From positions 1 through 41,301 of IMG/VR virus record IMGVR_UViG_3300005663_000019: a stretch of 41,301 nucleotides of DNA; one strand, 5' to 3'. Of this stretch, positions 1,700 to 41,301 are shown one piece after another. The notes beneath the pieces were generated by a model. The model ran no database searches. It worked only from the letters and a program-made list of their open reading frames with translations, and was not told the origin of the DNA. Every line of letters begins with the position of its first letter. The first letter of the stretch is position 1. This DNA comes from a virus. Position numbers and translations under genes: made by a program.

Positions 1700-2347
1700 T
1701 CAATACACCCAACGACCGCGATCTAAGTTATTTCCGAACTCCGGATTGAGCAGGCCCACAGGATACAAATACATCTCTGTTGTTGCCAATTTTGAGTGCC
1801 CCAGAAGCGCTTGCAACTGTTTGGTATTTAACCTGTTTTCAAAAAGTGATAACGTCGCAAACGTGTGCCTGGTCATGTGTGGCGTGACATGCTTGTCAAG
1901 CCCCGCCAGTAAAGTGAACTTTTTTAGCTTATGTGCTATCGCTGCCCGCTTATAAGGCTGTTTTAACGCCGAATAGAACACCTGTTTACGCCTGTCAGAC
2001 GCCCGAACGGTCTGCGGCAGGGTTGCAGGGCGATAGTTTTTCAGATAATCTGATAATCTCGCCGCTAATCTGTCGCTTATCGGGATATCACGCGACTTTT
2101 GACCCTTACTCTCGTGAACGTGTATCGCATTAGCTCCGAGATATTTGGGAGTGTCCTTAGCCCGCAGACCGCATAACTCCGATACCCGCAAACCCGTCTG
2201 CAACATCAAATCAAATATCAGACAGTTCTGCACACCGCCCTCGTCGCCGCTCACAGAAACCATGTATTCCATGAACCGCCGCTCCTCGTCAGAGGTCAAA
2301 AACTTATTCAAGCCGATAGGAGCCTCTGGTTTTCGCTTCTTAGCCAT
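1700..2347 (-). CDS. Tyrosine recombinase, catalytic domain only (XerC/D-like, 215 aa)
   Basis: This is a strand-exchange enzyme of the tyrosine recombinase family. The catalytic set is complete: R54 in TGLRVSEL, K81 in ESKGQKS, H157-x-x-R160 in HMTRHTFAT, H184 in LLGHSKLATT and the nucleophile Y193 in TTEMY. The start is taken at ATG 2347 because GGAG lies eight bases upstream; an in-frame ATG at 2353 is only two bases from it. Only about 45 residues precede the first catalytic arginine, so the usual N-terminal core-binding domain is missing. The gene overlaps the 3' end of its upstream neighbour by 8 bp, as in an operon. It is distinct from the integrase beside attP, and may act in dimer resolution or another site-specific inversion or excision; that role is inference. 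Confidence 0.85.
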   Translation of the reverse strand: MAKKRKPEAPIGLNKFLTSDEERRFMEYMVSVSGDEGGVQNCLIFDLMLQTGLRVSELCGLRAKDTPKYLGANAIHVHESKGQKSRDIPISDRLAARLSDYLKNYRPATLPQTVRASDRRKQVFYSALKQPYKRAAIAHKLKKFTLLAGLDKHVTPHMTRHTFATLSLFENRLNTKQLQALLGHSKLATTEMYLYPVGLLNPEFGNNLDRGRWVY

Positions 2348-2666
2348 TACCATTACTCCGCTCAGTCGCCGCGGCTTTTTCAAGGGCGTTAATCTTGGTT
2401 TTTAATGTTTTAATAGTTCGGCGAGGCTTTGTGGCCTTGGCTATTCTTTCTTGCCTTGTCTCTTGTAGTAGCCTGCGATTTGTTTTGTAATAATGGAAAA
2501 TCGTTTCAGACGCAATGTCCCAAAATTCTCTCCCCAGGCAGCCGCTTAGAGCCGTTCTCGTCCGTGGGTTGGGTACAATTTCTGTATATTCATCTCGATG
2601 CATGGGAAAGATGGCCTCTGGATAGGGGTTTTCGGGCCACCAGTGTGGTTTTATTGCTTTTTCCAT
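2340..2666 (-). CDS. Hypothetical basic protein (108 aa)
   Basis: ATG 2666 is preceded by GGGG seven bases upstream and overlaps the end of the previous gene. The protein has an aromatic N-terminal segment (HWWPENPYPEAIFPMH) and a Lys/Arg-rich helical C-terminus that looks like a coiled coil (TIKTLKTKINALEKAA). It ends with the module KAAATERSNGNG, which resembles the C-termini of two other proteins in this genome (ends near 4885 and 37008). No family was recognised; the basic helical tail suggests nucleic-acid contact, but this is only inference. Confidence 0.6.
   Translation of the reverse strand: MEKAIKPHWWPENPYPEAIFPMHRDEYTEIVPNPRTRTALSGCLGREFWDIASETIFHYYKTNRRLLQETRQERIAKATKPRRTIKTLKTKINALEKAAATERSNGNG
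2356..2380 (-). repeat. Gene-junction module, copy 1
   Basis: On the minus strand this segment reads AAAAAGCCGCGGCGACTGAG followed by CGGAG. It matches copies at 4903-4930 and 37045-37070, except that it lacks the three bases TCC. It encodes a C-terminal Lys-Ala-Ala-Ala-Thr-Glu-Arg and also supplies the GGAG ribosome-binding site of the next gene (recombinase, ATG 2347). A short CCGC/GCGG stem with a nine-base loop is possible. Confidence 0.6.
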
Positions 2667-5228: not shown

Positions 5229-5256
5229 AGTGACCTCCTTTCTTTGTATCACTCAA

Positions 5257-5330
5257 TAGCGGGGGCCGGATTTGAACCGGCGACCTCCGGGTTATGGGCC
5301 CGGCGTTCTGCCGGACTGAACTACCCCGCG
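5257..5330 (-). tRNA. tRNA with CAU anticodon (initiator-like Met)
   Basis: A full 74-nt cloverleaf can be drawn on the minus strand. The acceptor strand CGCGGGG (5330-5324) pairs with CCCCGCT (5264-5258) with a C:U mismatch at 1:72. The D arm is GTTC/GAAC, the anticodon arm is CCGGG-CCCATAA-CCCGG, and the T arm is GCCGG-TTCAAAT-CCGGC. The anticodon is CAU; CCA is not encoded. Three G:C pairs in the anticodon stem and the unpaired 1:72 position are initiator hallmarks. The T11:A24 pair is elongator-like and position 33 is C instead of the near-universal U. tRNA-Ile2 (CAU, lysidine) is an alternative. It heads the early minus-strand operon. Confidence 0.85.
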
Positions 5331-5464
5331 ATATATATTCACTTTTCAAAATTGGGGGCCGGCCGCGCCAACAGCCGTACCCCCGGACTGTCTAATGACA
5401 GCAGTAGATTTTATAAAAGCCGGCCAGCAGCCAAACCCTGACCGGCTTCGGAGGAGGGTGATGC

Positions 5465-5487
5465 GCCGGGCTGTGAACCCGGCTTTT
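5465..5487 (+). terminator. Possible intrinsic terminator upstream of the int promoter
   Basis: GCCGGG (5465-5470), loop CTGTGAA and CCCGGC (5478-5483) form a 6-bp stem followed by TTTT. It could stop plus-strand transcription entering the attachment region. The arm resembles a tRNA-His anticodon arm, but no other tRNA arms are present. Confidence is low because the T-run is short. Confidence 0.35.
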
Positions 5488-5530
5488 ATGATGACAGCCG
5501 GCGGCGTTTCACGGTGCACCGCTGGCTACT

Positions 5531-5548
5531 TGTGTCAAGGATGTGTCA
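5531..5548 (+). promoter_or_regulatory. Candidate integrase arm-site pair, left (P) arm
   Basis: TGTGTCA occurs at 5531-5537 and again at 5542-5548, an 11-bp step, so both would face the same side of the helix. The block TGTGTCAAGGATGTGTCA closely matches the pair at 5781-5798 on the other side of the core. Matching short direct repeats flanking an attP core are what arm-type integrase sites look like; binding itself is inferred. Confidence 0.5.
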
Positions 5549-5557
5549 GTTTTTTAG

Positions 5558-5586
5558 TTGACAGGGTGAAAACCACTCTGTATAAA
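5558..5586 (+). promoter_or_regulatory. Strong sigma70-type promoter reading towards attP core and int
   Basis: TTGACA (5558-5563), a 17-bp spacer and TATAAA (5581-5586) give a near-consensus promoter. Transcription would start near 5593, cross the tRNA-Gly core at 5633-5675 and reach the integrase at 5800. Because the core lies between promoter and gene, integration would uncouple them. Confidence 0.7.
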
Positions 5587-5632
5587 GCTGTTTTTTGGCA
5601 TGAAAAACAGGCAGGATGGGTAAGACTATAAA

Positions 5633-5675
5633 TTTCCCAAGCTGAAAGTCGAGGGTTCGAATCCCTTCGCCCGCT
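5633..5675 (+). other. attP: Probable attP core: 3' half of a tRNA-Gly(CCC) gene
   Basis: From the anticodon loop onward the sequence reads like a tRNA: loop TTCCCAA (anticodon CCC), 3' anticodon strand GCTGA, variable AAGTC, T arm GAGGG-TTCGAAT-CCCTT, acceptor CGCCCGC and discriminator T. The 5' half is absent: the bases before the loop (TATAAA..) do not pair with GCTGA. Phages that integrate into tRNA genes carry exactly such a 3' fragment so that the host gene is restored. The integrase begins 125 bp downstream. The predicted attB is the 3' half of a host tRNA-Gly(CCC) gene. The exact core boundaries cannot be set without the host sequence. Confidence 0.8.
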
Positions 5676-5747
5676 TTTGCAGTAAGCGGTTGAAACAAAA
5701 GGGTTTATGTTTCTCGACCGCGCGCATTGTCTTTTCGCATTTGCCGC

Positions 5748-5798
5748 CGTGTCGTGTTTGTGTCATGTTTTTTTGTGAAAAACGTCAAGGTTGTGTCG
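5748..5798 (+). promoter_or_regulatory. Candidate integrase arm-site pairs, right (P') arm
   Basis: Two more pairs with the same 11-bp step are present: CGTGTCG (5748-5754) with TGTGTCA (5759-5765), and AACGTCA (5781-5787) with TGTGTCG (5792-5798). The second pair has the same GTCAAGG(A/T)TGTGTC core as the left-arm pair. It abuts the integrase ATG at 5800 and covers its ribosome-binding region, so integrase binding there could repress its own translation or transcription. Confidence 0.5.
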
Positions 5799-5799
5799 T

Positions 5800-6762
5800 A
5801 TGGCTACTCTAAGTTTTGTAAAGGATCGTAGAAGGTGGCGCGTTCGCTACCGCGCAACTCACCGTGAATCCGGCAAAATTTTCTCCGGCAGTAGGGTGTT
5901 TTTTGAAAAATCCCAAGCAGTTAAGTTTTACGCCGATGCTGAAGAACATGAAAGTCTCTGGCGTTCCGGCAATGTATCAATTCAGGAATCCATCGACCAG
6001 GCGGTAGACGAATTTTTCCGACATTGCAAATCTCACACGGAAGGAACCCAAGTCCTTTACCGTATGGTATTGGATCGGTTCATTAAATGCCTGCCGAAAA
6101 ACTGTTGTCGTATCCAACAGATAGAGCCGTTCCATATCCAGGACTATCTCTATCATATAACGGATCAGCGGTTTACAAACCGAACTTGCAATTCGCATCT
6201 TACCGCGATCAAGTCTTTCTGCCGCCATTACTCGCATCGGCACAATGTTTCGAATCCCGCCGAAAAGGTCAAGATGCTCGTAGAAAACCCACCGAAAAGC
6301 AGGTTCATTACCCCTAACGAATTAGCCCGACTTCTGGCAATTGCCGATACAGTCGCTACCGACCGGATTCTATTCCTCGCTAACACCGGATTAAGAGCCT
6401 CGGAGTTTTCACGCCTTACGCCCGATTGCTATAGCGATAAAGCCATTACGATTGTCGGCAAGGGCCGCAAACGCCGCACAATACCCCTTAACAAAGCAGC
6501 AAGAAAGGCAGCAAATAAACTCAAACCGGCAACACCTGGTGCCCTATACCTTCAACTAAGCCGCCTGGCAGCGAAGGCCAAGCTGGAGCCGTTAGGCCCA
6601 CACTCGCTAAGGCATTACTTCGCCACTCAACTGCTGCTCGCCGGTGTACCTATAATCAAGGTAAGCAAGCTACTCGGCCATAGTTCCGTCCGAACGACAG
6701 AGCGTTGTTACGCCCACATTCTGGATTCAGACCTAAAAAACGTGACTGACATCCTCGATTAA
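5800..6762 (+). CDS. int: Phage integrase, tyrosine recombinase with arm-binding domain (320 aa)
   Basis: This enzyme would recombine attP with the host attB. The catalytic residues are R199 (TGLRASEF), K221 (VGKGRKR), H268-x-x-R271 (HSLRHYF), H294 (LLGHSSVRTT) and nucleophile Y304 (ERCYAH). Residues 1-60 (SFVKDRRRWRVRYRATHRES...FFEKSQAVKFY) look like the three-stranded arm-binding domain of two-domain integrases. Residues 61-155 form the helical core-binding domain. ATG 5800 has AAGG nine bases upstream; an in-frame TTG at 5791 lacks a site. It is one of few plus-strand genes, lies 125 bp from the attP core and is followed by an intrinsic terminator. No excisionase gene was recognised nearby. 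Confidence 0.95.
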   Translation: MATLSFVKDRRRWRVRYRATHRESGKIFSGSRVFFEKSQAVKFYADAEEHESLWRSGNVSIQESIDQAVDEFFRHCKSHTEGTQVLYRMVLDRFIKCLPKNCCRIQQIEPFHIQDYLYHITDQRFTNRTCNSHLTAIKSFCRHYSHRHNVSNPAEKVKMLVENPPKSRFITPNELARLLAIADTVATDRILFLANTGLRASEFSRLTPDCYSDKAITIVGKGRKRRTIPLNKAARKAANKLKPATPGALYLQLSRLAAKAKLEPLGPHSLRHYFATQLLLAGVPIIKVSKLLGHSSVRTTERCYAHILDSDLKNVTDILD

Positions 6763-6915: not shown

Positions 6916-6974
6916 AAAGCGGCTGGGCCTTCCTTGACCCATTGCGACCCTCTGTGGCCGCGAGCCGCTTTTTT
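6916..6974 (+). terminator. Intrinsic terminator downstream of int
   Basis: AAAGCGGCT (6916-6924) pairs with AGCCGCTTT (6963-6971); GGCC pairs can extend the stem, and the 3' arm ends in a run of six T. It lies about 150 bp after the integrase stop on the plus strand. Confidence 0.75.
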
Positions 6975-40888: not shown

Positions 40889-41301
40889 TTAGCCTATTTT
40901 TTCTTCTTTTAACCCACCCTCAAACCATGATTTCAGCGATGCCCGCTCAATCTTTGTCCACAACTCACATTCCAATACTTTCTTCCTGTAAGATTTTGGT
41001 AACTTGCTTAAATTCTTTTGAATTTCAGCGATACACCCTTTCTTGACAATGTTCACCATTTCAGGAAAACCAAAACAGTGACATTTTTCAATCCACCACC
41101 CTCTCTCTCTTTCACCGTCAAGGTCAAACCTTATTAAATCGCAAGTTAGTTTTCCTATTTTGGAATAATCAAAAGTGAGTGGAATATATAATCCGCCTGT
41201 GTAGATGTTGCCGCCGCCTGTGTCGATGTAGCCGCCGCCTGTGTAGATGTAGCCGCCGCCTGTGTAGATGTTGCCGCCGCCTGTGTAGATGTAGCCGCCG
41301 C
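40889..41301 (-). CDS. GGGYIYT-repeat protein, C-terminal part (gene cut by window end)
   Basis: The frame enters the window at 41301 within the repeat (GGYIYT-GGGNIYT-GGGYIYT-GGGYIDT-GGGNIYT) and leaves it with GG-LYIPLTFDYSKIGK. About 100 residues follow: a beta start, a Trp/Cys-rich stretch (RERGWWIEKCHCFGFPE) and a helical, basic end (KLPKSYRKKVLECELWTKIERASLKSWFEGGLKEEKIG) to TAA 40891-40889. The C-terminal domain is not recognised; its helical region may anchor or oligomerise the repeat part. It continues the N-terminal piece at 1-393. Confidence 0.8.
   Translation of the reverse strand, partial: GGYIYTGGGNIYTGGGYIYTGGGYIDTGGGNIYTGGLYIPLTFDYSKIGKLTCDLIRFDLDGERERGWWIEKCHCFGFPEMVNIVKKGCIAEIQKNLSKLPKSYRKKVLECELWTKIERASLKSWFEGGLKEEKIG
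41194..41301 (-). repeat. 21-bp coding tandem repeat array (right piece)
   Basis: About five units in the order YY, NY, YY, YD, NY, with the same codons as the array at 1-239. The last 29 bases of the window (41273-41301) equal its first 29 bases, which joins the ends in frame; longer overlap fails because the next units differ (TAC versus AAC). Confidence 0.9.

Follow-up and report, generated by a model that had tools for sequence, protein, structure and literature searches.

Probable exchange of promoters upon integration of a temperate phage of Planctomycetota: an attP site that separates a conserved predicted promoter from the integrase gene

The window analyzed in this study (a whole 41.3-kb virus record; 41,301 nt) encodes a P22-like portal protein, a terminase and a major head protein. 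Its two ends have 29 nt in common, located within a tandem repeat (unit of approximately 20 nt, GCCGCCGCCTGTGTAGATGT; positions 1–240 and 41200–41301) that falls within an open frame and at which the assembled circle has probably been collapsed. A capsid relative of the phage leads to a Planctomycetota MAG, and the host phylum was reached by the capsid protein alone. The features of the integrase gene (int) and of the region upstream of it are listed in Table 1.

Table 1. Features of the attP-int region of the window.
Feature	Position	Strand	Basis
Terminator-like hairpin with T run, upstream of the attP/int unit	5465–5483	+	Consensus scan only
P-arm tandem integrase sites (GTGTC at 5532 and 5543, 11 bp apart)	5531–5549	+	Putative; layout also in relatives
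Sigma-70-type promoter (TTGACA-17-TATAAA; -35 starts 76 bp before the core)	5558–5586	+	Consensus match; conserved at -75/-76 in six relatives
Dyad CTGTTTTT/AAAAACAG at the predicted transcription start	5588–5610	+	Sequence
attP core (tRNA-Gly(CCC) 3′ half, T32 of the anticodon loop to U73)	5634–5675	+	Sequence; tRNA comparison
P′-arm integrase sites (GTGTC at 5749, 5760 and 5793; the last ends 3 bp before the int ATG)	5749–5797	+	Putative; layout also in relatives
int (tyrosine recombinase, 320 aa)	5800–6762	+	Complete gene
Terminator-like hairpin downstream of int	6954–6968	+	Consensus scan only

Five GTGTC sites, which the earlier note described below does not mention, are present in attP, including two pairs whose members are exactly 11 bp apart, an arrangement that was found in none of 20,000 shuffled sequences. 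Since the tandem GTGTC sites flank the core on both sides, the region 5530–5800 represents a full attP with arm-type sites, in which the promoter is situated between the left (P) arm sites and the core. The crossover site is expected to be the anticodon loop of the core. An earlier note on this DNA had placed the tRNA-Gly(CCC) 3′ half at 5633–5675; its identity, strand and end hold, and its start lies one base later. No 5′ half of tRNA-Gly(CCC) was detected within the window. A dyad of the form AAAAAC..GTTTTT is found in the relatives described below, at a place similar to that of the dyad in the window. A complete tRNA-Met (CAT) gene is located approximately 200 bp from attP (5256–5331, minus strand), which is reminiscent of phages whose own tRNA genes reportedly matter in lysogeny (PMC10865867).

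The int product matches Pfam Phage_integrase (E 1e-24), and alignment revealed a complete catalytic set (R199, K221, H268, R271, H294 and Y304). The start codon proposed in the earlier note, the plus-strand ATG at 5800, was confirmed (an alternative TTG is located at 5791). With all six catalytic residues in the protein and arm-type sites around the core, this is a tyrosine recombinase integrase with a bipartite attP. The window encodes a second tyrosine recombinase (1700–2383, minus strand; 227 aa; Pfam E 2e-33), which consists of the catalytic part alone and is possibly a resolvase or an excision partner; it had no match in the searched sequence of the attP relatives.

The close relatives of the integrase are encoded by viral contigs L089 to L095 (52–57% identity); L090 duplicates L089, which leaves six relatives. 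In all six, the order of parts upstream of int is the same as in the window. Among the window proteins tested, Int alone matches the sequence searched for L089–L095, and DNA conservation ends slightly past the P arm; the arms, promoter, core and int therefore travel as one cassette. Kin identified by their capsid proteins were unusable as a source of attP sequences: G006, a 43-kb capsid relative with common structural genes, gave no integrase match. Several of the integrases of L092–L095 are without one or both of the usual catalytic histidines (GPNALRH; MGN-S or MGV-S), with the arm/core/promoter layout retained. A motif like AAGAACTTACR, possibly an excision-factor site, is conserved in the 20–40 bp behind the tRNA half in L089–L095 and also behind tRNA-Leu in G129, G322, G375, G194 and G402; in the window it is not clear.

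The TTGACA-17-TATAAA sequence reported in the earlier note was confirmed on the plus strand. It agrees with the sigma-70 consensus at 11 of 12 positions, and no other plus-strand site in the window scores as high; the only other 11/12 site identified is on the minus strand. A site as good occurs in approximately 0.08% (8e-4) of shuffled 400-bp stretches of local composition (plus strand). A consensus scan requiring T at the last position of the -10 hexamer does not report it. The earlier note also described this promoter as strong; it is indeed near consensus, and "strength" is to be read here as consensus match alone.

In blind scoring of the P arms, the start of the best sigma-70 site fell 75 or 76 bp before the core in each of the seven attPs, the window included. 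In the more distant relatives, the best promoter-like site is located 65 (L100), 59 (L101) and 64 bp (L126) before the core. The promoter scores of L089, L091 and L093 (9/12) are not significant one by one; summed over nine attPs, the score is 91, compared to 72.6±2.1 for shuffled arms. When permuted consensus sequences were applied to the unchanged DNA, a score as high was obtained in 1 of 1500 cases, and in none were the sites equally clustered. Within the P arm, the -35 and -10 hexamers show pairwise identities of 0.57 and 0.51, respectively, versus 0.34 in the spacer and 0.24–0.48 in the flanks. The L095 record carries a 123-bp terminal repeat and is therefore a complete genome with an undivided attP. 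That otherwise unrelated phages keep a predicted promoter at one and the same distance from the core points to selection acting on the switch itself.

The TTGACA/TATAAA sequence might instead form part of a binding array for Int or an accessory protein, with int transcribed from a promoter that escaped recognition. Read as its reverse complement, TTGACA becomes TGTCAA, the arm motif in several relatives, and copies of TTGACACC are clearly arm sites in the unrelated G399 element. However, the arm motif varies (GTGTC, TGTCAA, GGGCAA, TTCCAA, GTGTAA) while the -35 remains TTGA(C/T): the arms carry GGGCAA in L092, TTCCAA in L093 and GTGTAA in L101, yet the respective -35 hexamers are TTGACA, TTGACT and TTGACA, each with a -10-like hexamer 16–18 bp from TTGAC(A/T). 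The -35 is therefore not merely an inverted arm site, and this identification was set aside. The same consensus is also seen in host tRNA promoters, and the binding-array explanation is considered quite improbable.

The DNA between the core and int offers no comparable signal. The best promoter scores between the tRNA half and int range from 7 to 9 of 12 in nine attPs, which is the level of shuffled sequences in a consensus search (by which unusual promoters could be missed). Together with the position of the upstream site and the divergence of its surroundings, this supports the proposal of the earlier note that the attP core separates the promoter from int. Neither the window nor most relatives showed a convincing terminator in the interval from the tRNA end to int, and T runs are shorter behind the phage tRNA halves than behind host genes (p 8e-5), which makes read-through from the tRNA plausible. 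Attenuating stem-loops were sought in the 5′ UTR, and the folding of the int leader was at shuffle level (z -0.44). In G129 (L040), a stable hairpin followed by a T run is present between tRNA-Leu and int; it is a candidate attenuator of tRNA read-through, and some members of the family may therefore keep int low in the prophage. The putative Int sites adjoining the start codon suggest self-repression.

The same interval bears on a further explanation, in which integration disconnects int and supplies it with no other promoter. The phage promoter would drive int in the circle only, and int would be essentially silent in the prophage, with tRNA transcripts ended or cut behind the tRNA; integration would lock int off, and excision would need another source of Int. 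This would agree with the lack of a phage promoter on the int side of the core, with the T7–T8 tracts at the end of some host tRNA-Gly genes and the hairpin of G129, and with the position of the P′ sites, at which bound Int could block int. Against it stand the shorter T runs behind the phage halves, the lack of a convincing terminator before int in the window and most relatives, and the behavior of ICEKp1 and ICEclc, whose tRNA promoter does reach int. A silent prophage int is judged unlikely, and an exchange of promoters is the preferred reading.

The integrase family was detected in 11 of 161 genomes of the host order, versus 1 of 392 phylum-wide. An exact search of viral and genome collections with the tRNA half of the window gave no match. 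In L089 and L092, the half is identical to host tRNA-Gly(CCC) genes of this order, and that of the window shows a single difference, one compensated T-stem pair, from tRNA-Gly(CCC) of G135, G286, G402 and G504. The earlier note gave it as established that integration at a tRNA 3′ half restores the tRNA; in agreement with this, a host 5′ half joined in silico to the window half yielded a normal tRNA-Gly(CCC) (ARAGORN). The tRNA-Gly(CCC) genes of the order carry TTGACA/TATAAT-type promoters, and in genuine tRNA-Gly genes the distance from the -35 to the anticodon loop is mostly approximately 68 to 89 bp; the phage position falls within this range. Other elements reside in tRNA-Gly(CCC) of the same class in G390 (L198, L199) and G399 (L200, L201); in both, one end holds an intact tRNA and the opposite end a 3′ half. 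These two loci (half-only tRNA-Gly with TTGAC upstream) were excluded as members of the family, as the nearest recombinase match is on the opposite strand, and G442 was excluded since no int was found on the stretch examined.

The host genes also bear on the possibility that the promoter was selected for a role in the prophage, where, at attR, it would transcribe host genes behind the tRNA. In the integrated state it must, by geometry, face the host flank, and a rescue of this kind is known: the SpyCI promoter rescues mutL (PMC3430984). However, most host tRNA-Gly(CCC) genes stand alone, with T runs and varied neighbors behind them, so there is little to rescue, and conservation tracks the int-attP cassette across unrelated phages. 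Selection for the supply of host genes is therefore considered very improbable.

Integrated homologs provide a view of the prophage state. In G129, G322 and G375, of the same Planctomycetota order, an int gene whose product is 40–46% identical is located 208 to 469 bp behind an intact tRNA-Leu gene, on the same strand; the weaker relatives in G123 and G194 are likewise placed behind intact tRNA-Leu, on the same strand, and the int of the prophage L096 (41%) is found 106 bp downstream of an intact tRNA-Gly(TCC), again co-oriented. These copies confirm the predicted position of int in the prophage, directly behind the tRNA. One full integrated copy was found in G402, where a tRNA-Leu gene is followed 16 kb on by a copy of its 3′ part, from the anticodon loop; tandem TGTGAAA sites lie beside both junctions, and int is truncated. 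At this attR, the P arm yields a best promoter match of 8/12 and no consensus promoter, a result that gives the far-end promoter no support in the tRNA-Leu branch. The attRs of G129, G322, G048, G123, G375 and G194 were not found within the sequence searched, nor was any integrated copy or attR of the close (>50%) tRNA-Gly subfamily.

The DNA itself shows the parts and the order in which they occur, how both are conserved among the phages, and that relatives are integrated behind intact tRNAs. Taken together, these observations suggest that the region 5530–5800 serves a temperate phage of Planctomycetota, in a single order of that phylum, both as attP and as int control region. Transcription of int would probably start at the phage promoter as long as the DNA is circular, and at the host tRNA promoter once it is integrated. 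In the circle, RNA polymerase would start between the P arm and the core, traverse first the tRNA half, then the P′ arm, and go on to transcribe int. Int would then recombine the anticodon-loop core with the host tRNA-Gly(CCC) gene, the host tRNA being completed by the phage half. As a result, int would be located approximately 125 bp behind the tRNA, under the host tRNA promoter and at a distance similar to that of the phage promoter, which would itself be relocated to attR, at the end of the prophage opposite to int, facing host DNA. Int bound to the P′ sites beside the start codon may repress int. This scheme presumes activity of both promoters, extension of tRNA transcripts into int and an action of Int on its own gene through the P′ sites. 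Because integration would swap the promoters, Int production would be tied to the state of the DNA, circular or integrated. The idea of state-dependent int expression, put forward in the earlier note, appears sound, since it has been established for ICEs (PMC13023037).

Related int genes with another arrangement were also identified. In L097 (5900–6001), L098 (180–397), L107 (G423:C92; approximately 1330–1500) and L127 (upstream of 5262), int is placed behind a 5′ half of tRNA-Gly(CCC) with a tRNA-type promoter, and not behind a 3′ half; integration of such elements would give the tRNA a phage promoter and 5′ half, and int a host promoter. In L128 (within 250 bp before 6001), a tRNA-Gly 5′ half adjoining a TTGACA..TAGAAT promoter is present on the opposite strand upstream of a related int. 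On a broader view, which we offer tentatively and hold to be somewhat less probable than its negation, target choice and int regulation could be one co-evolved device: a portable int-attP cassette, exchanged among unrelated phages, that has its promoter where the host tRNA keeps its own relative to the crossover, so that recombination swaps promoters at a nearly matched distance, with a sister design (5′ half plus promoter) in the same family. The promoter exchange proposed for this phage would extend the switching of int between circular and integrated states from conjugative elements to temperate phages, in a phylum whose phages have seen little genetic work. It also offers one reason for the orientation of int away from the targeted tRNA gene in many phages, namely that the target gives both a site and a promoter, and it provides a quick comparative test applicable to any tRNA-targeting integrase.

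State-dependent switching of the int promoter was revealed by 5′-RACE and reporter fusions in ICEKp1, with support in ICEclc and ICEEc1 (PMC13023037); Pcirc of ICEclc was the subject of earlier accounts (PMC2892462, PMC9286271). As in these three elements, int is found close behind the target tRNA and co-oriented with it in homologous integrated copies, and the same is predicted for the window. A promoter at the opposite end of the element, facing int across attP in the circle, is likewise shared, in the window by sequence and conservation. The consensus search detected no strong promoter between the core and int, as in the ICEKp1 type, and, like ICEclc, the window phage uses tRNA-Gly. In the ICEKp1 type, integration also separates the tRNA from its terminator and so permits read-through; the observations that bear on this here are the shorter T runs behind the phage halves and the terminator-like hairpin before int in G129. 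In contrast to these ICEs, its crossover is placed in the anticodon loop and its promoter between the P-arm Int sites and the core. A literature search with limited terms found no phage with exactly this arrangement.

Among prophages, KplE1 (intS) and others like it also have int adjoining a tRNA and co-oriented with it, and arm sites crowding the int control region suggest self-repression (PMC2951348). However, the int promoter of KplE1 lies within attL, between the core and int, and is active in the prophage, whereas in the window the best score there is 7/12, equal to that of shuffled sequences. Anatomically, the window groups with the ICEKp1-type layout and not with the KplE1 type. Mycobacteriophage BPs resembles it in having an attachment site in a regulatory unit, so that integration alters gene output; the BPs attP is reported to be in the repressor gene, whereas that of the window separates a promoter from int (PMC4557955). 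ICEKp1, ICEclc and ICEEc1 are conjugative elements of Proteobacteria with measured transcripts and a mapped 5′-UTR attenuator, whereas the elements described here are temperate phages of uncultured Planctomycetota known from sequence. Since the promoter switch has already been shown in those ICEs, the mechanism as such is not new; what is new is the phage family, the phylum, the fact that the arrangement is conserved in a portable cassette, and how closely the promoter position matches that of the tRNA promoter.
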